Below, piece after piece: positions 22,904-50,913 of a DNA stretch of 51,671 bases. The notes beneath the pieces were generated by a model, which saw nothing but the letters and a program-made list of their open reading frames with translations, was not told the origin of the DNA and ran no database searches. The position numbers and the translations under genes were made by a program. This DNA is from Archangium sp. GTDB taxonomy: Bacteria; Myxococcota; Myxococcia; Myxococcales; Myxococcaceae. The stretch lies in assembly GCA_030695565.1 (NCBI GenBank), contig JAUYRZ010000100.1:1-51671 (forward strand). Direction: 5' to 3'. Within the stretch, counting starts at the first letter, position 1. Each line of letters opens with the position of its first letter.

Positions 22904-24448
22904 TCAATCGCTCAGATCCACGGGCACGCTGACTTCGAAGCAGGTGCCATCGGGCCCGGTGGTGAACGTCAGCTTGCCGCCCATGCCCTCCGCGATCTCT
23001 TTGCAGATCGCCAGGCCCAGGCCCGTGCCCTTGCCGGGATCCTTCGTGGTGAAGAAGGCGTCGTACATGCGCTTCTGCACTTCGATCGGGATGCCCGTGC
23101 CGTAGTCACGCACCGCGATCGTCACGGTCACCTCGTCCTGCTTGGCGGTGATCTCGAGCTTGCGCTTCTTGCGCGGCAGCTCTGCCATCGCGTCGACGCC
23201 GTTCTGCATCAGGTTCAAGGTGATCTGCCCCAGCGCCGACGGGCTTCCCATCACCTCTGGCAACCTGGAGAGCGAACACACCACGTCCACGTTCTGCTTG
23301 TGCGCTCCGCGAAAGATCGTCACGGCCTCCTGCACTGCTTTGGCGGGCTCGAACCGAATCCGTTCATCCTTCTTCCGCGCCGTGCCCTTGAGCGCCTGCA
23401 CGATGGTCTCGATGCGCGAGACGCCCTCGAGCGACTCACTGACGATCTCATCCACCTCGCTCATCGGCGACGTCGACCGCCCTTCCCTCAGGTCATCCAG
23501 ATCCCCGCGCAGCGAGTGCAAATTGCTCTTCAAGAACGCCAACGGGTTGTTGATCTCATGCGCCACGCCGGCGATCAGCTGGCCGATCGTCGCCAGGCGA
23601 TCCCGCTGGGTGGCGACTTCACGCGCCCGATTCGCTTCCTGCTCCAGCGTCGCCAGATCGAGCACCGCGCCGATCGCGTCGGCCAGCGCGTGACTCAGGC
23701 GCAACAAACCTTCCGAGAGCCCCTCGCGCGTCGACAGATACAGCACGCCCTTCGAGCTGCGCCCGCACACCGGCATCAACACCGCCGCCAGCCCCCGCTC
23801 GTGCCTGAAGGGAATGCACGCATCACTGAGCTCGGGCAACGTGACCGGCCGGTTGTGATGCAGCGTCACCGCCAACACGGATTCTTTCGGGTCATTCTTG
23901 AGCGCAACCGCGTCGGCGACCTCGTGCTCCGTCAGACCCGACGACGCCGCACAAAGGAACTGGGTGCCCATCGGATCCAGCTCGAAGAACGCCAGATGCG
24001 TGGCGCTCAACGCCGAGTGCACCGCCTCCAGCGCCCGCTGCAGCGCCTGCTTCCTCGTGGCGCTCGAAGCGATCGCCTTGAGCACCGCCCGCAGCACCGA
24101 AGCCTCGGTGCGTGCCTTCTCCAGCTTCTGCCGATCCAACACCACCAGGAACGCGTCAGGCCTTCGGTCGGGCGCCACGGAGACCAGCACCCGCTCTGCC
24201 CCCGACACCTCGAGCCCCGACTGAATGCAGGTGCGCGTCGTACGGCACGCCTCGAGGAGCCGGCTGATCAGCTGCTCGATTCGGAGACCAGCCCCGGATG
24301 CCAGCAGCGTCTCAGCCGGATTGTTCCACTCCAGCGCCTCGCCGCTCTCCGTGACCCACAACATCCCCACTGGCAGCTCATCGATCAGCGAACGAAAGCC
24401 GTCTTCATTGACGGGTGACTCCACGCGTTGGGGAAGCAGACGGCTCAT
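22904..24448 (-). CDS. Soluble sensor histidine kinase with PAS and GAF domains
   Basis: Cytoplasmic signal-transduction kinase, 514 aa from the ATG at 24448; the frame is open to 24571 and the start is not certain. Order: PAS-like domain (~15-110), GAF-like domain (~118-270), HisKA with phospho-His297 (GVAHEINNPLAFL), then HATPase (N box NLMQNGVDAM, G1 DYGTGIP, G2 GTGLGLAI). No membrane segment and no receiver are present. It is divergent from the first flagellar sigma-54 activator, with 275 bases between, so it may feed into flagellar control as FlrB/FleS-type kinases do. However, neither activator has a receiver to phosphorylate. Confidence 0.85.
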   Translation of the reverse strand: MSRLLPQRVESPVNEDGFRSLIDELPVGMLWVTESGEALEWNNPAETLLASGAGLRIEQLISRLLEACRTTRTCIQSGLEVSGAERVLVSVAPDRRPDAFLVVLDRQKLEKARTEASVLRAVLKAIASSATRKQALQRALEAVHSALSATHLAFFELDPMGTQFLCAASSGLTEHEVADAVALKNDPKESVLAVTLHHNRPVTLPELSDACIPFRHERGLAAVLMPVCGRSSKGVLYLSTREGLSEGLLRLSHALADAIGAVLDLATLEQEANRAREVATQRDRLATIGQLIAGVAHEINNPLAFLKSNLHSLRGDLDDLREGRSTSPMSEVDEIVSESLEGVSRIETIVQALKGTARKKDERIRFEPAKAVQEAVTIFRGAHKQNVDVVCSLSRLPEVMGSPSALGQITLNLMQNGVDAMAELPRKKRKLEITAKQDEVTVTIAVRDYGTGIPIEVQKRMYDAFFTTKDPGKGTGLGLAICKEIAEGMGGKLTFTTGPDGTCFEVSVPVDLSD

Positions 24449-24611
24449 GGCTTCGCAGGACCAATGCAATTCGGCCGCCTCCCTTGCCTGGGTAATCACC
24501 CTCCGGGCTGAGTCGGGCTGCACCCCCGAAGCAAGCGGCTGATCTCGTGCGACGCCCCTCGAAACCGTCAAAACGCGGGTGGGATCCGACCCCCGGTCAC
24601 CCCTGTGGCGC

Positions 24612-24625
24612 GTCAGGCTACTGAC
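24612..24625. promoter_or_regulatory. Inverted repeat upstream of the flagellar promoter
   Basis: GTCAG-GCTA-CTGAC, centred about 58 bases upstream of the predicted start of transcription. Possible regulator binding site; no protein can be named. Confidence 0.3.
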
Positions 24626-24649
24626 CTTGAATCGTTGGGATTCTGGCGC

Positions 24650-24665
24650 TGGCCTGGGCGTTGCT
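24650..24665 (+). promoter_or_regulatory. Predicted sigma-54 promoter of the flagellar cluster
   Basis: TGGCCTGGGCGTTGCT: GG at 24651-24652 and GC at 24663-24664 are exactly ten bases apart, with TTGCT as in the -12 consensus. Transcription would start near 24676, 48 bases before the first activator gene. A perfect inverted repeat GGCCTG...CAGGCC (24651-24671) overlies the site. Confidence 0.6.
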
Positions 24666-24723: not shown

Positions 24724-25869
24724 ATGAACCTGGCGACGGCGAACCTGACTGGCGACTTCGGCACGATGAGCAACCTCATTCACGACGAGCACTCCCCGCT
24801 CATCGACTTGCTCAAGGCCTGTCAGCGCATCGCGCCGACGGACTCCAACGTGCTCCTCACGGGCGAGACCGGCACGGGCAAAGAGGTGTTCGCCCGCCAC
24901 ATTCACGACACCAGCGCGCGGGCCGACAAACACTTCGTGCCCGTCAACTGCGGCGCGATCCCCGAGACCCTGCTGGAGAGCGAGCTGTTTGGTCACGTGC
25001 GTGGCGCGTTCACCGGCGCGTTCGCTTCTCGCAAAGGCCGCGTGGCGATGGCCGAAGGCGGCACCCTCTTTCTCGACGAGATCGGCGAGCTGCCCCTCGC
25101 GCTGCAGGTCAAGCTGCTGCGCCTGCTGCAGGAGCGCACCTACGAGCCCGTGGGCAGCGCCGAGAGCGTCACCGCCAACTTCCGCCTGATCGTCGCGACC
25201 AACCGCAACCTGGCCGCCGAAGTCGAAGCGGGCCGTTTTCGCCTCGACCTCTTCTACCGCCTGCAGGTCTGCCCGCTCGAGCTGCCCCCGCTGCGCAACC
25301 GCAAGGGCGACATCATGAAGCTGTTCATGCACTTCTGGCGGCAGCGCGGTGAGACCCGCTCGCTCGAGCCGAACGCCATTCGTGCCATCGAGTCGCACCC
25401 CTGGCCCGGCAACGTGCGTGAGCTGGAGAACCTGGTCGAGCGCGTGTCGGTGTGCACCGAAGGTTCGATCATTCGGGTGACGGATCTCCCCGTGCACATT
25501 CGCCAGGCCGCGATGAGCGCGAACGAGGTGGTGCTCTCCATCGTGCCCCCGCTGCCTTCGCCTCCTGCCGCGCCGCTGCGTTTCCCGCTCGACGGTGAGG
25601 CGTCGTTGCCTGGCGGCTTCGAGCACCTGCCCAGCCAGGCTGCCGAGCTCCAGTCGATCGCGCCCGAGGCGCTCCTCGCCGCCGCGAACGCTCCGAAGTT
25701 CCCCATCGACCTGCCCCACCTGCTGCGCACCGTCGAGGAGCTCTACATCAGCGCCGCGCTCGCGCAGGCCGGTGGCAACCGCAAGGCCGCCGCCGATCTG
25801 CTGGGCCTCCAGCGCACCACGCTGGTCGAGAAGCTTCGCCGCCGCAGCCGCGACACCCAGGCCGCCTGA
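24724..25869 (+). CDS. Sigma-54-dependent transcriptional activator (receiver-less, FlrC/FleR-like)
   Basis: Enhancer-binding AAA+ protein expected to open sigma-54 promoters of flagellar genes. The 381 aa product has only ~20 residues before the ATPase domain, so no receiver. Visible: Walker A GETGTGKE (47-54), intact sigma-54-contacting loop GAFTGA (94-99), Walker B TLFLDEIG (114-121), arginine-finger region FRLDLFYRL, sensor [10 protein letters not shown], and a Fis-type helix-turn-helix at the C-terminus (~355-376, [17 protein letters not shown]). A ~75-residue Pro/Ala-rich linker joins ATPase and DNA-binding domain. GAGG precedes the start. It opens the flagellar run, 16 bases before the TPR-like gene. 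Confidence 0.92.
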
Positions 25870-25885
25870 ACTTCGAACAGACCCC

Positions 25886-27199
25886 ATGCTCACCCTCGCC
25901 CTCGCCCTGATGTTGAACGTCAGCCCTCTCCCGGAGGGAGACAAGGTCACTGGCTTCACCGTCTCGGTGGAGCGCGTGTCGCTCACCGAGTCGGCGGGCG
26001 CTTCGGTGACCACCGACCCGATGCTGGCCGAGGTGATCCTCACCGGCCTCAAGCTCAGCACCAAGGCCCCCCGGCTCTGCCCCACCAGCGAACGGCGCGG
26101 CGAACGGCTGGTGCTGCACTGCACCACCCGGCGCGTCTTCGCGCAGCTCGCTCATGATGAACGCGGCGCTTTCCTCGACGTGCGTGAGGTGCTGGGCGTC
26201 AGCTGGCTCGACTTCGCCCTGGTGCCGCTGAACGCCTGGTCGCTGCGCAGCCTCTCGTTGCCCGACGCGTGCCCCGGCAAGCTGGCGGCGGCGCGGGGCG
26301 AATGTGCGCTCGCCGAAGGTGATGTCGACGCCGCCCGCGCCGCCTGGATGGAAGGGCTCGACGGCCCTGACGTGAGCCTGTGCCACCTGCGCCTGGGCGA
26401 TCTCGCCATTCGTGAAGGCGCGGTCGAAGCGGCCCTCACCCACTACGCGAAGATTCCCGATGCCGGCCTGGTGGGGCGTCTGGCTCAGCTGCGCAGCTGC
26501 GAGCTGCTGGGCACCTGCCTCACCATCGAAGCTTCGGATCGGGCTGCCGACACCAGGCTGCTGGCCGCTGACCTCGCCCGCGAAGTGCGGTTGCTCACCG
26601 TGCGCCGCGAGCTCGCTGCCGGCCGTGACGTTCGGGCGATGCAGGTGCTGCTCACCGCGCTCGAGACAGATGGTGATGCCTGCACCAGCGCCTTGTCGCT
26701 CTGTCAGAAGTTCGTGGCGGCTGGGCTGGAGAGCAGGGAGCTCGAGGCCCGCGTCGCGGCGCTCTCTTCCTTCCTCACCGACAAGGTCCGCAGAGGCCCC
26801 GCCGAGTACGCGCTCAACCAGGCGGCCTCCCGCGCGGCTTCGGAGATCGGCGCGCCGGGGTTTGCCGCTTCGATTCTCTCGGCCAACACGCCGCACGTTC
26901 CAGGCGCCGAGCTGTCGTCGCACCTGCTGGGCATCATCAAGCTCTACGTCGCCGCTCGTGATCCGGTGCGCGCGACGGTGGTGCTCGAGTACGCCGAAGG
27001 CAAGCTGGGCTCCGTCACCCGCAAGGGCGAGTGGACTTCGGCCCGCCGCCAGCTCGGCCGCCGCGCCATGGTGCGGCCGGTGCCCGAGCGTTCGACCGAA
27101 GCACTCGACGCCCTCAGCGCCCAGGTCTCGTTGTCGACTGATCTCGCCCGTGCAGCATCGCTGCGCAGCAAAGCTTCAACCGCGGAGAAAGCCCCATGA
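25886..27199 (+). CDS. Exported TPR-like protein in the flagellar operon, function unknown
   Basis: A 437 aa protein with a hydrophobic N-terminus (MLTLALALMLNVSPLP) that looks like a short signal peptide. After a beta-rich part (~17-115) comes a long run of helical pairs rich in Ala and Leu (~125-400), some with TPR spacing (AAARGECALAEGDVDAARAAW; LGDLAIREGAVEAALTHYAKI). I do not recognise a flagellar family. It is placed between two sigma-54-type activators; its stop overlaps the next start as ATGA (27196-27199), so it is clearly part of the operon. The frame is open upstream, but that portion is a shadow of the previous gene. Confidence 0.75.
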   Translation: MLTLALALMLNVSPLPEGDKVTGFTVSVERVSLTESAGASVTTDPMLAEVILTGLKLSTKAPRLCPTSERRGERLVLHCTTRRVFAQLAHDERGAFLDVREVLGVSWLDFALVPLNAWSLRSLSLPDACPGKLAAARGECALAEGDVDAARAAWMEGLDGPDVSLCHLRLGDLAIREGAVEAALTHYAKIPDAGLVGRLAQLRSCELLGTCLTIEASDRAADTRLLAADLAREVRLLTVRRELAAGRDVRAMQVLLTALETDGDACTSALSLCQKFVAAGLESRELEARVAALSSFLTDKVRRGPAEYALNQAASRAASEIGAPGFAASILSANTPHVPGAELSSHLLGIIKLYVAARDPVRATVVLEYAEGKLGSVTRKGEWTSARRQLGRRAMVRPVPERSTEALDALSAQVSLSTDLARAASLRSKASTAEKAP

Positions 27200-28053
27200 A
27201 CGTCGAATTGGTCGCCACCAGTCTCTCCATGCGTCACGCGCTGAGCGCTGCGCTCGACGTTGCTTCGACCCCGACCACGGTGCTGCTCACCGGTGAGACC
27301 GGCACCGGCAAAGAGGTGCTGGCCCGCTTCATTCACCAGAACTCGCAGCGGTCGGCGCTCCCGTTCACGGTCATCGCTTCGGCGTCGATCGACCTGGAGC
27401 AGGTCGAAGCCGCGCTGCGCCACGGCGGCACGGTGCTCTTCGATGAGATCGGCAGCATCCCCATGGAGACGCAGGGCCGGCTCCTCTCGCTGCTCGAAGG
27501 CGCTCACCCGTCGCGCGTCATCGCCACCTCGCACCGCGATCTGCAGGACCTGGTGGGGCGCGGTCAGCTGCGCTCCGACCTGTACTACCGCCTCGACGTC
27601 TTCCCCATCGTCGTGCCTTCGTTGCGCGATCGGAAGGAAGACATCGCCCCCCTGGCCGACCTGCTGCTTCAACGGGCCGGCAAGAACCTCGGCCGCCAGG
27701 CGTCACGCCTCACCGCCGAAGCGCTGGGCCTGCTCGAGTCGCAACGTTGGCCCGGCAACGTGCGCGAGCTGGCCAACGTGCTCGAGCGCGCCAGCATCCG
27801 CTCGCGTGGCCCGATGATTGAAGGTGGAGAACTCGGGCTCATCGCCCGGCCCGTCGATGCCTCGTTCTTCCCCACCCATCTGCCTTTGAACCTCGATCAG
27901 CTCGAGCGCCTGGCGATCGTCGAAGCGCTCCGCCGCACCGCGGGCAACCGCACCCACGCTGCCCGCCTCCTCAACATCGGCCTGCGCACGCTGCGCCAGA
28001 AGTTGAACACCGAATCGCAGCCCACTGAATTACTCGAGGTCGCCGCCCCGTGA
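27196..28053 (+). CDS. AAA+ activator homologue lacking the GAFTGA loop
   Basis: Shortened member of the sigma-54 activator family, 285 aa. It keeps Walker A GETGTGKE (33-40), Walker B VLFDEIG (80-86), an arginine-finger region (LRSDLYYRLDVFP), sensor II (GNVREL) and a C-terminal Fis-type helix-turn-helix (HAARLLNIGLRTLRQKL). Walker A to Walker B is 46 residues against 67 in the neighbour, and the segment holding GAFTGA is missing (residues 62-78 read SASIDLEQVEAALRHGG). There is no receiver. Without this loop it should not remodel sigma-54 by itself; it may oppose or pair with the upstream activator, or act with another sigma factor. Start ATGA- and stop GTGA-coupled to its neighbours. Confidence 0.88.
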   Translation: MNVELVATSLSMRHALSAALDVASTPTTVLLTGETGTGKEVLARFIHQNSQRSALPFTVIASASIDLEQVEAALRHGGTVLFDEIGSIPMETQGRLLSLLEGAHPSRVIATSHRDLQDLVGRGQLRSDLYYRLDVFPIVVPSLRDRKEDIAPLADLLLQRAGKNLGRQASRLTAEALGLLESQRWPGNVRELANVLERASIRSRGPMIEGGELGLIARPVDASFFPTHLPLNLDQLERLAIVEALRRTAGNRTHAARLLNIGLRTLRQKLNTESQPTELLEVAAP

Positions 28054-28478
28054 AGCTCTTCGACACGACGATGGGAAAGCTTCAGTCGGCGCTCGACGTT
28101 CGGCTCGATCGCCAGAACGTGCTCAACGGCAACCTGGCCAACATCGACACGCCGGGTTTCTCGCCCCGCGAGCTCGACTTCGACAAGGCGCTGGCCGCAG
28201 CGGAGAACGGGAAATCGGCTGAGTCGGGTGCGCCGGTGGCGGTCGCGTCGCGGGAGGGCTTTCTGCCGGTGAACAACCCGGCGCCGATGGGCACGGACAA
28301 CGCGGCGTTCGTGCGTGTGTCGGAGGAGCTGCAGGGCGGCCTCGATGGCAACGGCGTGGATCTCGACAAGACGATGGTCGAGCTCGCGCGCAACTCGCTG
28401 CTCTACGGCGCGGCGGCGAAGGCGGTGGGGAAGAAGATGGCCCTGCTCCGCTACGTGGCGACGGATGGGGTCGGTTGA
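28050..28478 (+). CDS. flgB: Flagellar proximal rod protein FlgB
   Basis: Rod subunit just above the MS ring. The 142 aa product has the rod/hook family N-terminus (LDVRLDRQNVLNGNLANIDTPGFSPRE, quoted in part: NLANIDTPGF) and a C-terminal helix (VDLDKTMVELARNSLLYG). GTG start overlapping the stop of the preceding activator gene (GTGA). Slightly longer than E. coli FlgB. It is followed by a palindromic repeat before flgC. Confidence 0.93.
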   Translation: MKLFDTTMGKLQSALDVRLDRQNVLNGNLANIDTPGFSPRELDFDKALAAAENGKSAESGAPVAVASREGFLPVNNPAPMGTDNAAFVRVSEELQGGLDGNGVDLDKTMVELARNSLLYGAAAKAVGKKMALLRYVATDGVG

Positions 28479-32597: not shown

Positions 32598-33946
32598 GCG
32601 GCCTCGACCTGGAGCGTCTCAAGAAGAACCTCGATCGCGCCGAGCCCGTGGTGGTGCAGGGCCGCATCGTGCGCGCGACCGGCCTGGTGCTCGAGGCCTC
32701 GTTGCCCCGCGTCGCGCTGGGCACCGCCTGCGAGATCATCGATGACGATGGCCGGGTGTTCCAGGCCGAGGTCGTCGGCTTCAACGGCCCTACGGCCCTG
32801 CTGGTGCCGTTCGGCGAGATGGAGGGCATTCGCGAAGGCTGCGTGGTGATTCCCCGCGCGGCGGCCGGTGAGCTGACGGTCGGTGAAGCGCTGCTGGGCC
32901 GGGTGGTCGACGCGCGCATGCAGCCCATCGACGGTGGCGCTCCGCTGGCCCTGCGCGATCGCGTGAAGCTCACCGCGGCGCCGCCCCCCGCGATGCAACG
33001 CAAGCGCATCGACAAGCCGATGGTGCTGGGCGTGAAGGCGCTCGACTCGTGTCTGACGCTCGGGGAGGGCCAGCGCGTGGGTGTGATGGCCGGCCCGGGA
33101 GTGGGCAAGTCGGTGCTGCTGGGCATGATCGCCCGGCACGCCAAGGCCGAGGTGATCGTCGTCGGGCTCATCGGCGAGCGCGGCCGCGAAGTGCGTGAGT
33201 TCGTCGAGCGCGACCTGGGCCCCGAGGGCCTCGCCCGCAGCGTGGTGGTGGTGGCGACCGGTGACGAGCCGCCCCTGGTGCGCGTGCGCGCCGGCATGGC
33301 AGCCACCGCGGTGGCCGAGTACTTCCGCGCGAAGGGCAAACGGGTTCTCCTGCTGATCGACTCGCTCTCACGCATCGCCATGGCGCAGCGCGAAATTGGC
33401 CTCGCCGCCGGTGAGCCGCCCACCTCGAAGGGCTACCCTCCTTCGGTCTTCGCCGCCCTGCCCCGGCTGGTCGAGCGCGCGGGCAACGACGCAGGCGAGG
33501 GCAGCATCACCGCGCTCTACACGGTGCTCGCCGAAGGCGACGACATGGCCGACCCGGTGACCGACTGCGCGCGCGCCGCGCTCGACGGTCACATCGTGCT
33601 CTCCCGCCGCCTCGCCAACGCCGGTCATTTTCCCGCCGTCGATGTTCTGGCGTCGGTGAGCCGGTGCATGTCCGACGTCACTTCCGTGACGCATCGCGAG
33701 CAGGCCTCCACCGTGCGCGATGTGCTCTCTGCGTACCGCGAAGCGACCGATCTGATTGACGTTGGGGCCTACCAGGCGGGCTCCAACCCGCGTGTCGATC
33801 GGGCCATCCAGGTCATCGGCACGCTCAATGCTTTCCTGAAGCAGGCACCGGTCGAGCGGTTCTCGCTCGAACAAACGCTGACGAACTTGAAGGGCGCGCT
33901 GACTCCAGCGCCGCCCGCTGCACGACGGGAGCAAAACCGTGGTTGA
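32594..33946 (+). CDS. fliI: Flagellum-specific export ATPase FliI
   Basis: Hexameric ATPase of the flagellar type III export apparatus, 450 aa. Walker A AGPGVGKS at 166-173, Walker B LLLIDSLSRIA, and the GERGREVREF and YPPSVFAALPRL motifs conserved in FliI/F1-beta relatives. GTG start coupled to the end of fliH. Followed with an eight-base overlap by a MotE/YlxF-like gene and not by a clear fliJ. Confidence 0.97.
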   Translation: MSGLDLERLKKNLDRAEPVVVQGRIVRATGLVLEASLPRVALGTACEIIDDDGRVFQAEVVGFNGPTALLVPFGEMEGIREGCVVIPRAAAGELTVGEALLGRVVDARMQPIDGGAPLALRDRVKLTAAPPPAMQRKRIDKPMVLGVKALDSCLTLGEGQRVGVMAGPGVGKSVLLGMIARHAKAEVIVVGLIGERGREVREFVERDLGPEGLARSVVVVATGDEPPLVRVRAGMAATAVAEYFRAKGKRVLLLIDSLSRIAMAQREIGLAAGEPPTSKGYPPSVFAALPRLVERAGNDAGEGSITALYTVLAEGDDMADPVTDCARAALDGHIVLSRRLANAGHFPAVDVLASVSRCMSDVTSVTHREQASTVRDVLSAYREATDLIDVGAYQAGSNPRVDRAIQVIGTLNAFLKQAPVERFSLEQTLTNLKGALTPAPPAARREQNRG

Positions 33947-34508
33947 AGCGATCTTGATGGCCCTGCTGGCGAGTGGACCTGCTCCGGTCGCCGTTGCTCC
34001 CGCGGGCGAGCTTCCGACGGCGCTCACCAAGAAGGCGCTCTGCGGCGAGCTGACCCGCACCAGCAAGGAGCTCGCGGCCGCCCGCGCGAAGATCGAGAGC
34101 GATCGCAAGGCGGTCGAAGCAGATCGCACCGAGCTGGAGAAGCTCAAGGCCGATATCGCCCAGGCCCGCGCCGGCCTGCGCACCGAAACCGAGAAGCTCG
34201 AGGGGCTGCTGGCCAAACGGGGCGACGCCCCCGCCCCGGTCGCTGAAGTGCCCCCGAAGCCCAGCACCGCCGTGCGCCCCGCTGAACTCGACGCGCTGGC
34301 CCGCACCATGAAGTCGATGAAACCCGAGGCCGCCGCGGCCCTGGTGCAGCGCAGTGAGCCGGCGCTGGCCGCTTCGTTGCTCAAGCGCATGAAGCCCGCC
34401 GATGCCGGCGCCGTGATGGATCGCCTCAAACCCGAGCTCGCCGCTGACCTGCTCGCCCTGATGTCCACCATGCCTTCCGCGCCCACGAAGTCGGGAGGTC
34501 GCCTGTGA
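33939..34508 (+). CDS. motE: MotE/YlxF-like flagellar protein (MgtE_N-type helical domain)
   Basis: A 189 aa protein with a hydrophobic N-terminus (~1-22), a coiled coil at ~35-95 (SKELAAARAKIESDRKAVEA), a Pro-rich spacer, and a C-terminal MgtE N-domain-like region (ARTMKSMKPEAAAALVQ; LLKRMKPADAGAVMDRL). Proteins with this layout occur next to fliI/fliJ in Firmicutes (YlxF) and as the motor protein MotE. No separate fliJ is found here; the coiled coil might in part stand in for it, but this is a guess. GTG start with GGGAG upstream, overlapping fliI. Confidence 0.78.
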   Translation: MVEAILMALLASGPAPVAVAPAGELPTALTKKALCGELTRTSKELAAARAKIESDRKAVEADRTELEKLKADIAQARAGLRTETEKLEGLLAKRGDAPAPVAEVPPKPSTAVRPAELDALARTMKSMKPEAAAALVQRSEPALAASLLKRMKPADAGAVMDRLKPELAADLLALMSTMPSAPTKSGGRL

Positions 34509-38502: not shown

Positions 38503-39084
38503 TCACCGAGCGGAGTACCAGGCGGTGAGCGCCCAGCGATCAGCGCGCGCCTTCAACACCTCGTGCTCCACCAGCTCTGATCGAAACACCACCAGCCGAT
38601 CCAGGGTCGGGGCCAGCTCGACCGGAGGCGCGACGTGAAGCCGCAGTTGCCCACCGTGTTCGGGGACCCAGGCAGGGTTCAGGTAGACGATCGCGGTGAT
38701 GCGCCGGTTGTCTTGCCCGGGGAACGCGTCGCGATGCCGGGCGTAGTGCGCTCCCGGCGCGTAGTGCGCCAGCTGGAGATCGAACGTCCTCAAGCCCAGC
38801 CACGCCGCGTCATTGAGCTCGTGCATCAGCCGCTCGAAGTGCGTGACGGCCATCGACAACGCGCCCTTCGTCTCGTCTTTCGTCAGCCAGGCCAGCTCAT
38901 CGCTGCGCACCGTCTCGTCGAGCTCGTGACCCCGCCGAATGCCCGCCCGCCGCAGGGGAATGGCCTGTGCATCGGTGCGCACCCGCGAGGCCAGCTCGGC
39001 CCCCAGGAATGAAGCCCGGGTGAAGTAGCCCTGGCCTCCCAGCTGCTCCACTTCAGAAACCGTGTCGATGAGTGCGTGAGCCAT
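38503..39084 (-). CDS. 2-oxoglutarate/Fe(II)-dependent oxygenase (prolyl hydroxylase-like)
   Basis: Predicted non-heme iron dioxygenase, 193 aa, of the type that hydroxylates protein or small-molecule substrates. The iron ligands are His117 and Asp119 (YARHRDAFPG) and His174 (ELVEHEV), with Arg183 (DRWALTAWY) placed to bind 2-oxoglutarate. It lies on the opposite strand between motA and motB; its ATG overlaps the motB ATG within CCATGG (39082-39085). The frame is open to 39135, but the upstream part is antisense to motB. No ribosome-binding site is clear. The substrate is unknown. Confidence 0.85.
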   Translation of the reverse strand: MAHALIDTVSEVEQLGGQGYFTRASFLGAELASRVRTDAQAIPLRRAGIRRGHELDETVRSDELAWLTKDETKGALSMAVTHFERLMHELNDAAWLGLRTFDLQLAHYAPGAHYARHRDAFPGQDNRRITAIVYLNPAWVPEHGGQLRLHVAPPVELAPTLDRLVVFRSELVEHEVLKARADRWALTAWYSAR

Positions 39085-39865
39085 GGCGAAGAAACACAAA
39101 CACGAAGAGCACGAAAACCACGAGCGGTGGGTCATTTCCTACGCCGACTTGATGACGTTGCTCTTCGCGCTCTTCGTCGTGATGTACGCCTCGAGCCGGG
39201 TCGACACCAGCAAGCTGGCCAAGACCACCGAGTCGATGAGGTGGGCGTTGCACTTCAAGGGCGAAGGCGGCGTGACCAAGCTCAAGGTCTTTCGTGGACA
39301 GCCTTCAGAAGGGGGCTGCGTGACCGCCATCGGCGCCGAGGCCGGTCAGCCCACCACAGGTCAGAAGAAGCTGGTCGAAGACACCCGCAAGAAGCTCGAG
39401 AAGGCGCTCAAGCCCTTCCTGCTGCGCAAGGAGAAGAACCCCAGCGTGAAGATCGAAGTGGAGAACGGGAAGCTGCGCAACCGCCTGGCGGCGCATGGTT
39501 TCTTCGACCCCGCGTCGGCTTCGTTGCGGCCTGAAGCGCTGGCGGTGCTCGATGCCATCTCCACGGAGGTGGCCGGCTCGCCCCAGCTCATCCGCGTCGA
39601 GGGTCACACCGACGACGGCGCGATCACCTCGGTGAAGTTCCGCAACAACTGGGATCTCTCGGCGGCCCGCGCGGCCACGGTGGTGGCCTACCTGGAGCAG
39701 GCCCATGACGTGGCGCCCGCCCGGCTCTCCGCGGCCGGCATGGGGTCGAGCCACCCCCTGGTGTCCAACGACACCTCGGAGAACCGCGAAATGAACCGCC
39801 GAATCGAGCTGGTTCTGGAAGTCCCCCCGCAAGATCCAAGGGCTTACCTCCCGCCAGCCCCCTGA
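39083..39865 (+). CDS. motB: Flagellar motor stator protein MotB
   Basis: Peptidoglycan-anchored stator subunit, 260 aa. Short basic N-terminus, one transmembrane helix (~18-38) with the ion-binding Asp22 in SYADLMTLLFALF, and a C-terminal OmpA-like domain (RVEGHTDDGAI; NNWDLSAARAATVV; NRRIEL). Its start codon overlaps the start of the antisense oxygenase gene. The context (MotA, FliL) supports MotB over an OmpA protein. Confidence 0.96.
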   Translation: MAKKHKHEEHENHERWVISYADLMTLLFALFVVMYASSRVDTSKLAKTTESMRWALHFKGEGGVTKLKVFRGQPSEGGCVTAIGAEAGQPTTGQKKLVEDTRKKLEKALKPFLLRKEKNPSVKIEVENGKLRNRLAAHGFFDPASASLRPEALAVLDAISTEVAGSPQLIRVEGHTDDGAITSVKFRNNWDLSAARAATVVAYLEQAHDVAPARLSAAGMGSSHPLVSNDTSENREMNRRIELVLEVPPQDPRAYLPPAP

Positions 39866-39904
39866 CGCGTCAAGGGCACGTGCGTTGCTCATGGGGTGCT
39901 GACC

Positions 39905-45306: not shown

Positions 45307-46344
45307 TCAGATGGTCGCTGCGTCGATCACGAAGCGGTAGCGCACGTCGTTCTTCACCATGCGCTCGTAGGCCACGTTGATCTTCTCAGCGGGGATCACT
45401 TCGACGTCGGCGACGATCTTCTTCTCGGCGCAGAACTCGAGCATCTCCTGCGTCTCCTTGATGCCGCCGATGCTCGAGCCCGCCAACCGGCGATTGCCCC
45501 CGATCAGCGAGAACGGGTGCAGCTCGAGCTTCGGCGGAACGCCCACCACCACCATCGCCCCGTACGGCCGCAGCAGGCTCAGGTACGAGTTCATGTCGTG
45601 CGCCGCGGAGACCGTGTCGATGAGCAGGTCGAACTTGCCCGCCAGCGTCTTGAAGGTCGACCGCTCGCTGGTGAGCGCGAACGAGGTCGCACCGAGCCGG
45701 GTGGCGTCCGCCTCCTTCGAGCGTGAGGTGCTGAGCATGGTGACCTCCGCGCCCATCGCAGCGGCCAGCTTCACCGCCATGTGACCGAGCCCACCCAAAC
45801 CGACCACGCCCACCCGATCGCCCTTCTTGCAGTTCCACTGACGCAGCGGCGAGTACGTGGTGATGCCCGCGCACAGCAGCGGCGCCACCCCGCTCAGGTC
45901 GAGCCCCGCGGGGATCTTGAGCGCGAAGTGTTCAGTCACCACCACCTGCTTCGAGTAGCCGCCGAACGTCGGCGTCTTCCGATCCATCTCCGTGGAGTTG
46001 TAGGTGAACGCCGGCGTCTTCTCGCAGAACTGCTCATCCCCATGCGTACACGGCGCGCAGGTGCGGCACGAGTCGACCATGCAGCCCACGCCTGCGAGGT
46101 CACCGACCACCAGCTTCTTCACCTTCGCTCCGACCGCGGTGACCCGGCCGACGATCTCGTGACCCGGCACCATGGGAAACTTCGAGTTGCCCCACTCACC
46201 ACGCGCCTGGTGAATGTCGGAGTGGCAGATGCCCGAGAACAGAATCTCGATCTGCACGTCGAGCGGCCCCACCTCGCGGCGGTCGATCTCGAAAGAGGTG
46301 ATCTGCTGGTCAGCGGCCTGAGTGCCCCACGCGCGAGTCTTCAT
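45307..46344 (-). CDS. Zinc-dependent NAD(P) alcohol/aldehyde reductase (AdhC/YahK type)
   Basis: Medium-chain dehydrogenase/reductase, 345 aa, related to cinnamyl alcohol dehydrogenase-like aldehyde reductases. Catalytic zinc ligands Cys40 and His62-Glu63 (PGHE); structural zinc cysteines 93, 96, 99 and 107; cofactor motif GLGGLG. The segment GICHSDIHQARGEWG is typical of the YahK group, which usually prefers NADPH. It breaks the flagellar run between flhB and flhA on the opposite strand. Any link to motility is not evident. Confidence 0.92.
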   Translation of the reverse strand: MKTRAWGTQAADQQITSFEIDRREVGPLDVQIEILFSGICHSDIHQARGEWGNSKFPMVPGHEIVGRVTAVGAKVKKLVVGDLAGVGCMVDSCRTCAPCTHGDEQFCEKTPAFTYNSTEMDRKTPTFGGYSKQVVVTEHFALKIPAGLDLSGVAPLLCAGITTYSPLRQWNCKKGDRVGVVGLGGLGHMAVKLAAAMGAEVTMLSTSRSKEADATRLGATSFALTSERSTFKTLAGKFDLLIDTVSAAHDMNSYLSLLRPYGAMVVVGVPPKLELHPFSLIGGNRRLAGSSIGGIKETQEMLEFCAEKKIVADVEVIPAEKINVAYERMVKNDVRYRFVIDAATI

Positions 46345-50043: not shown

Positions 50044-50913
50044 ATGGACAACCAGGCAGATGGACTTCGTGAAGTGATGAAGGAGCAGCGGCGCTCGAAG
50101 CGGCCCCTGCGCATCATCGGGATCACCAGCGGCAAGGGCGGCGTGGGCAAGACCAACGTGGCGGCCAACCTCGGGGTGATCGCCGCCAAGCAGGGCATGC
50201 GCGTGTTGATCATCGACGGCGACATGGGTCTGGCCAACGTGGAGATCCTCTACGGCATTCGCCCCAGGCACCACCTGGGACACCTGCTGCAAGGCGACGT
50301 CTCGGCGCGCGACGTGCTGGCCACGACGACCAGCGGCGTGAAGGTGTTGCCGGCGGGCAACGGCCTGCAGCAGCTCACCCGGCTCGATGACGCTCAGCGG
50401 CTGCGGCTGGTCAGCGCGCTGGAAGAACTCGAAGACGACTTCGACGTGGTGTTGCTCGATTCAGGCGCGGGCATCGGCGACAACGTTCTGTTCTTCGTGG
50501 GCGCCGCGCAGGAAGCGCTGCTGGTGGTGAGCCCCGAGCCGACCTCGCTCACCGACGCGTACGCGACCATCAAGGTGCTCTGCCAGGACGCCGGGGTTCG
50601 GTACTTCGACGTGGTGGTGAACCAGGCCGGCAACGAGACGCAGGCGAGGGACATCTTTCAGAAGTTGACCGCGGTCGCCGGGCGTTTCCTCGACGCGAAG
50701 GTGCGTTGGCTGGGTTGGGTGCCGCGCGACGAGAACGTTCATCGCGCGGTGATGGCGCAGCGCCCGCTGGTCGAGCTGTTTCCCTCTTCGCCTGCCACGC
50801 GCGCCCTCAATGGCGTGGCCGACGCGCTGTTCAACGAGCCTCCCCCCGCGCACCTCGCGGGGGGCCTCAAGTTCCTGTGGAGCCGCCTGCTGCGCGACTC
50901 CAACGCTGCCTGA
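50044..50913 (+). CDS. flhG: MinD-like flagellar number regulator FlhG (FleN)
   Basis: ParA/MinD-type ATPase that limits flagellar number, 289 aa. The N-terminus has NQADGLRE, matching the DQAxxLR peptide with which FlhG activates the FlhF GTPase. Deviant Walker A SGKGGVGKTN (29-38), then IIDGDMGLANVEILYG and LLDSGAGIGDNV. The C-terminal helix expected to bind membrane is present as LKFLWSRLLRD. In other species FlhG also restrains the sigma-54 activator FleQ/FlrA, which is relevant to the activators here. Confidence 0.96.
   Translation: MDNQADGLREVMKEQRRSKRPLRIIGITSGKGGVGKTNVAANLGVIAAKQGMRVLIIDGDMGLANVEILYGIRPRHHLGHLLQGDVSARDVLATTTSGVKVLPAGNGLQQLTRLDDAQRLRLVSALEELEDDFDVVLLDSGAGIGDNVLFFVGAAQEALLVVSPEPTSLTDAYATIKVLCQDAGVRYFDVVVNQAGNETQARDIFQKLTAVAGRFLDAKVRWLGWVPRDENVHRAVMAQRPLVELFPSSPATRALNGVADALFNEPPPAHLAGGLKFLWSRLLRDSNAA

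Follow-up and report, generated by a model that had tools for sequence, protein, structure and literature searches.

The flagellar gene cluster of Archangium sp., a Myxococcaceae myxobacterium, encodes a canonical FleQ-like AAA+ activator (here called n) and a second AAA+ regulator (q) that has lost both loops used for sigma-54 contact, namely L1 with its GAFTGA motif and the pre-sensor-I loop. A GGCA-N5-TGCC array 5' of flgF, newly described here, is present in the sequenced relatives with q and absent from those without q. We consider it fairly probable (about 0.6) that q is a sigma-54-blind, DNA-bound regulator acting at its putative ancestral operator 5' of flgF as a gate or anchoring partner of n, which would supply the sigma-54 contact. 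This reading builds on the two deletions and their single origin, on selection and orthology, and on where the operator occurs and how it is spaced, all of which is established below.

The window, that is, the whole stretch of 51,671 nucleotides of contig JAUYRZ010000100.1 that was analyzed, contains the cluster in the order histidine kinase, n, TPR-like gene, q, flgB, flgC, fliE, fliF, fliG, fliH, fliI, fliK, flgD, flgE, motA, motB, fliL, fliM, fliO, fliP, flhB, flhA, flhF, flhG, and fliA (Table 1). The same genome also possesses rpoN. The TPR-like gene is weakly conserved, its end overlaps the start codon of q, and a Pfam search with its product gave no match. Further features of the cluster were recorded. 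In the position of fliJ, after fliI (33939-34508, + strand), a small protein is encoded that has an MgtE_N / FliG middle-domain-like match. A 2OG-Fe(II) oxygenase gene (38503-39135, - strand) is located between motA and motB on the opposite strand and overlaps the start of motB; it was found within the genus (G003, G005) and not in the other genus examined. Likewise, a zinc-type alcohol dehydrogenase gene (45307-46344, - strand) lies between flhB and flhA on the opposite strand, and is also present in G003 and absent in G009 and G142. A good match to a sigma-54 -24/-12 promoter just 5' of fliL (39873-39889, + strand) is shared by three species of this genus.

Table 1 Features of the flagellar gene cluster and of q in the window, with the evidence for each assignment.
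Feature	Position	Strand	Evidence and remarks
Histidine kinase	22904..24571	-	Divergent from n; FleS/FlrB position, candidate role only
FleQ/FlrA-type box GTCA-N6-TGAC 5' of n	24612..24625	+	Conserved in relatives
Sigma-54 -24/-12 promoter CTGGCCTGGGCGTTGCT	24649..24665	+	Best match in the window; putative operon promoter (n-TPR-q-flgB...)
n, GAFTGA-bearing canonical AAA+ activator, FleQ-like	24724..25869	+	Pfam, orthologues, tree
Alpha-helical TPR-like protein between n and q	25886..27199	+	Signal-peptide-like start
q, GAFTGA-less AAA+ regulator, FleR/FlrC lineage	27196..28053	+	ORF, Pfam, orthologues, tree
Walker A GETGTGK (G33-K39)	27292..27312	+	G-x-x-G-x-G-K invariant across the loop-less clade
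21-residue L1/GAFTGA deletion point	27417..27418	+	Between L74 and R75; alignment, split Pfam match
Walker B VLFDE	27433..27447	+	D83 invariant, E84 over 90%
12-residue pre-sensor-I (RVGG) loop deletion point	27498..27499	+	Between E101 and G102; alignment, spacing
Arginine fingers R126, R132 (RSDLYYR)	27571..27591	+	Invariant
Fis-type HTH (HTH_8)	27892..28005	+	Nearly identical in loop-less and GAFTGA-bearing orthologues
flgB	28050..28478	+	Overlaps stop region of q; first structural flagellar gene, then flgC, fliE, fliF
FlhG/FleN-type MinD ATPase	50044..50913	+	Candidate antiactivator of n

The ORF of q bears out the position given for this gene in a preliminary description of the window. 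It encodes 285 amino acids, with an AAA+ core, a lid, and a Fis-type HTH according to Pfam, and without an N-terminal regulatory domain as judged from ORF and alignment. Between Walker A Lys39 and Walker B Asp83 there are 44 residues in q and 65 in n, which corresponds to a 21-residue deletion. The preliminary description had reported the same loss, including GAFTGA, and its spacings of 46 and 67 residues refer to other end points. The distance from Walker B to the sensor-I strand is 24 residues in q compared to 36 in n and reveals a further deletion, of 12 residues, at the pre-sensor-I RVGG loop. Both deletions are clean in alignments with n and with GAFTGA-bearing q orthologues, and Pfam Sigma54_activat matches q in two parts, 27211-27417 and 27418-27609, which meet at the L1 junction and leave profile positions 71-91 uncovered. 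Walker A, Walker B, the arginine fingers, sensor II, and the HTH are kept, as had been described from the window and as Pfam and alignment now confirm; among the hallmarks of sigma-54 activators (bEBPs), the GAFTGA and pre-sensor-I loops are absent. In PspF, L1 is positioned by residues of the pre-sensor-I loop, and sigma-54 engagement depends on these residues (PMC2745333). Given this interplay, the loss of both loops from q fits a protein with no further need for sigma-54 contact. Without them, q is predicted to be unable to open sigma-54 promoter complexes by ATP, and therefore could not activate sigma-54 transcription by the known mechanism.

Lys39, Asp83, Arg126, Arg132, and the sensor II residue Arg190 are all invariant in the alignment of the loop-less clade, and the glutamate-switch Asn and the sensor-I Asn/His have drifted and are unconserved. 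This pattern suggests that q keeps nucleotide binding and subunit packing, and that coupled hydrolysis is relaxed. The core of q was modelled by AlphaFold with high confidence (mean pLDDT 83), and its best match among solved structures was the AAA+ domain of FlrC (Z 24.9). The host genome contains about 50 Sigma54_activat domains, and a few of them have altered motifs. Two further bEBP-like domains (L209 on G000:C60 and L210 on G000:C43) have a shortened L1, and Walker B of L210 is degenerate; the loss of GAFTGA is therefore not unique to q in this genome. What stands out about q is its conserved HTH and its place in a conserved flagellar operon.

Both loops were absent in all 12 q orthologues from four genera of the family, in which the genes are located 5' of flgB or flgC. 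The named contigs with loop-less orthologues belong to Myxococcaceae MAGs, and several of the compared genomes are fragmented MAGs. In contrast, the seven syntenic q orthologues from two sister families of the same order have kept both loops (one reads GSFTGA, and RVGG is kept). The preliminary description had proposed a survey of flagellated Myxococcota; in the present comparison, every q orthologue found in these four genera had the deletion, and none of those from the sister families did. Intact GAFTGA in close orthologues, named there as the sign of an error confined to this genome, was not encountered, as only the sister families have it. Chance, an assembly error, or a local deletion is ruled out because both deletions are common to 12 genomes. 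There is good support for the earlier proposal that q still has the parts for ATP and DNA binding but is unable to contact sigma-54. In eight flagellated relatives, four of them from the same family, n was present and q absent at the locus; two additional relatives with contig ends at this position were left out of the count. The flagellar locus of G141 (L086, G141:C39) is of the type without q and its n clusters with those of other genera, although six loop-less genomes are assigned to the genus of G141; this suggests a locus transfer or a binning problem.

In a tree of 72 proteins, which was midpoint-rooted and in which groupings were read by branch only, the q family formed one clade and the loop-less form one clade inside it (100/100), whose sister among the GAFTGA branches was weakly supported (81/36). 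The protein n grouped with FleQ-type proteins, and q fell with FleR-type proteins, apart from FleQ. The gene order fleQ-x-fleR-fliF occurs in Pseudomonas and Thermodesulfatator, and the closest relatives of q in these organisms are encoded 3' of a FleQ-type gene and 5' of fliF or flgBC. Based on tree and gene order, q is therefore FleR/FlrC-like, i.e., of the type that regulates middle flagellar genes. It shares with FleR/FlrC the tree position and the location 3' of fleQ and 5' of fliE/fliF or flgBC; a receiver domain is missing, as q has no N-terminal domain, and a kinase gene that is a candidate partner is located nearby.

The dN/dS ratio between pairs of loop-less q genes was 0.16-0.38 and thus near the value for n, and the HTH was among the regions with the lowest amino-acid change. 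As judged from the tree and these ratios, the loss of both loops is one ancestral event under purifying selection, and a pseudogene is disfavoured by the same ratios. The branches of q in the tree are longer than those of n. In addition, the q orthologue of G144 (L072 / L095, G144:C139) contains an in-frame TAG after about 170 codons, which may reflect decay or a sequencing error. Slow decay of q stays conceivable because of this stop codon and because q evolves faster than n, and is not favoured. A functionless q that is being lost, as in the sister lineages without the gene, would also be compatible with its absence from the eight flagellated relatives. However, purifying selection acts on the whole protein, the HTH and the arginine fingers are invariant, and the operator arrays described below are kept at near-fixed spacing across genera, which makes such a vestige improbable.

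The n orthologues retain GAFTGA. With a sigma-54 matrix written after the published consensus, a -24/-12 promoter was detected about 45-90 bp 5' of n in nearly every genome examined, whether it has q or not. Just 5' of this promoter lies a GTCA-N6-TGAC dyad, which was perfect in all nine loop-less genomes with the region available. It matches the FleQ box of Pseudomonas (PMC10723142; PMC6120874) as well as the yGTCA-N6-TGACr motif that has been proposed for the FlrA/FleQ-like DVU2894 (PMC4641369). By sequence, tree, and box, n is FleQ-like. No sigma-54 site was found directly 5' of q. Since a sigma-54 promoter with a FleQ-type box precedes the whole operon, n and sigma-54 probably drive the expression of q. 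Dyads of the type found at flgF (see below) occurred at the n promoter in chance numbers only, and this promoter is therefore no obvious target of q. Another GTCA-N6-TGAC match, inside fliI, was rejected as a regulatory box, as it looks like protein-coding constraint.

The flgF operon, which encodes the distal rod, ring, and hook-filament parts, is located on another contig of the host genome (G000:C121, locus L256). A GG-N10-GC sigma-54 element was present 5' of flgF in 12/12 loop-less and 7/7 GAFTGA genomes. At the -12 element, the GAFTGA genomes have TTGC and the loop-less genomes CTGC, with GTGC in one of them, and the sigma-54 dependence of flgF in loop-less genomes could therefore have changed. 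An unbiased dyad search in the flgF upstream regions returned CGGC-N7-GCCG (10 of the 12 loop-less genomes) and GGCA-N5-TGCC (8 of 12) as top motifs, compared to a maximum of five in shuffled sequences. The mean number of GGC-N7-GCC per 200 bp was 3.0 in loop-less, 2.43 in GAFTGA, and 0.25 in no-q genomes, and about 0.4 after shuffling; other spacers from 3 to 14 showed no comparable enrichment in the loop-less group. Among genomes keeping a sigma-54-like flgF promoter, permutation of the labels yielded p = 2e-5 with relatedness ignored, and the contrast was repeated inside three families (f1, f5, f7).

Relative to the -24 GG, the dyad centres of seven of the 12 loop-less genomes were located at -61, -47, and -17, and those of two more within 2 bp of these positions. 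In the GAFTGA genomes, the dyads were mostly at least 50 bp upstream and the copy at -17 was absent. By these comparisons, the array in loop-less genomes is near-fixed in spacing and has gained an extra copy that abuts the sigma-54 promoter. Weaker arrays were also observed: the window's own genome has two dyads only (-51, -20), G002 has one, and the GAFTGA genomes G081 and G082 are poor in dyads. Furthermore, a FleQ-type box (at least 7/8 matches) was found at -80 to -91 of flgF in 11/12 loop-less genomes, mostly at -80 or -90 and thus one helical turn apart; 4% of shuffled 200-mers reach this threshold, and part of the flgF promoters in GAFTGA and no-q genomes likewise have FleQ-type boxes, though at scattered sites. 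Because the n promoter has the FleQ-type box but no more dyads than expected by chance, the two motifs distinguish between n and q.

The assignment of the GC-rich dyad to q is based on its co-occurrence with the gene, from which we infer that q binds the GGCA-N5-TGCC sites 5' of flgF. The half-site of FlrC is CGGCAA, and the literature search retrieved no usable FlrC binding consensus. A paired-dyad pattern searched genome-wide produced about as many matches as a reversed-pattern control and was too permissive for GC-rich genomes, while a stricter pattern that included the promoter recovered flgF in seven loop-less genomes together with background. An ancestral role of flgF as target of q agrees with Pseudomonas, where the genes under FleR control include those for the rod, L-ring, hook, and hook junction (PMC3930126). 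This likely target on another contig was absent from the preliminary description, as were the second missing loop, the FleR/FlrC identity, and the changed switch and sensor-I residues. A near-perfect dyad, GGCAGGTTGTGCC, was also observed inside a sigma-28-like flagellin promoter (TAAG...GCCGAA) in three species of one genus (L226, L228, and L229; G000, G003, and G005). A protein bound there could block transcription.

These data are consistent with the following scenario. In the ancestor, q would have been a FleR/FlrC-type sigma-54 activator of middle flagellar genes that activated flgF from dyads at enhancer distance. After the ancestor of the clade had lost L1 and the pre-sensor-I loop, q could presumably no longer remodel the sigma-54 polymerase and would have been retained by selection as a DNA-bound AAA+ regulator. 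It would be expressed with its operon from the sigma-54 promoter with the FleQ-type box under the control of n, and would still recognise the array centred about 61, 47, and 17 bp 5' of the -24 GG, between the FleQ-type box and the sigma-54 promoter of flgF, including the new promoter-abutting dyad. As flgF retains a sigma-54 promoter, a protein with GAFTGA would be needed for open-complex formation, n being the most likely one, and q would either gate the access of n to this promoter or anchor n on the DNA. The operator evidence at flgF favours such a DNA-bound partner or gate over a free inhibitor. An antagonist, a hetero-oligomer partner, and a sigma-70-type regulator had been named in the preliminary description, and all three are still candidates. 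Gate and mixed complex, weighed in the following, are sub-cases of this main explanation, and our confidence in them overlaps with that in the whole.

As a gate, q bound to the array and to the -17 site abutting the polymerase footprint would block the n-driven transcription of flgF until a signal arrives or the level of q falls, and being encoded behind n, it would constitute a feedback brake. The restriction of the promoter-abutting dyad to loop-less genomes, the operon shared by q and n, and the blocking position of the dyad in the flagellin promoters agree with such a repressor, but a simple blocker does not obviously require invariant arginine fingers. We regard a gate as a reasonable candidate at clearly less than even odds. 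More tentatively, q and n could form a mixed ring at a near-rigid composite operator, in which the loop-less subunit recognises the class III promoter and n contributes the GAFTGA loops that contact sigma-54, as a mirror image of the Rhodobacter FleQ/FleT pair. Both proteins lack N-terminal regulatory domains, like known co-dependent pairs (PMC9542535; PMC11999139), including the mixed bEBP complex HrpR/HrpS. Moreover, the arginine fingers, which act in trans, are invariant in q while its glutamate-switch Asn and sensor-I residues have drifted, and FleQ-type box and dyads are near-rigidly spaced with a shift of about 10 bp. However, n alone presumably drives the locus in relatives without q. 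We consider the mixed ring less likely than not.

Alternatively, q might contact a non-sigma-54 holoenzyme (sigma-70 or sigma-28) directly, without a need for ATP hydrolysis. The drifted hydrolysis-switch residues, the flagellin-promoter dyads of one genus, which make a non-sigma-54 role possible, and the precedent of the GAFTGA-less NtrC proteins of Rhodobacter capsulatus and Caulobacter (PMC10274813) are in line with this idea. It is nevertheless unlikely, since flgF, the likely main target, has GG-N10-GC sigma-54 elements in 12/12 genomes.

Our results suggest that flagellar genes of the Myxococcaceae are regulated in a hierarchy, of which we found no report in the literature searched. Within one bacterial order, an enhancer-type activator can be seen before and after the change and after its loss: with GAFTGA and mostly distal dyads, loop-less with an abutting dyad, and with neither gene nor operator. 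Defined DNA sites are now available to ask whether a loop-less bEBP is a brake or a partner. If true, the mixed ring, a split enhancer-binding machine, would represent a route by which a conserved activator becomes an obligate partner.

Among known systems, q resembles the middle-gene activators FleR of Pseudomonas and FlrC of Vibrio in tree position, gene order, FlrC fold, and rod, ring, and hook-junction target genes, but lacks their L1/GAFTGA loop, pre-sensor-I loop, and receiver domain. With the GAFTGA-less NtrC proteins of Caulobacter (8-residue deletion) and Rhodobacter capsulatus (larger deletion), q shares a deleted L1 and a retained DNA-binding domain (PMC10274813). Those proteins are nitrogen regulators with receiver domains that act at sigma-70 promoters, whereas q belongs to the FleR/FlrC branch, has lost both loops, and has a likely sigma-54 target. 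The compact AAA+ core is also found in Pfam Sigma54_activ_2 (PF14532; e.g., PDB 3n70), to which q aligns with no net gap (122 residues on 122 profile positions, and almost equal ranges in 3n70), but this profile class is of mixed origin and not a functional family. In FleQ/FleT of Cereibacter (Rhodobacter) sphaeroides, as in n and q, one of two flagellar bEBPs is incomplete, and the pair sets the switch from class II to class III genes (PMC11999139). FleT, however, has no DNA-binding domain, whereas q keeps this domain and lacks the sigma-54 loops.
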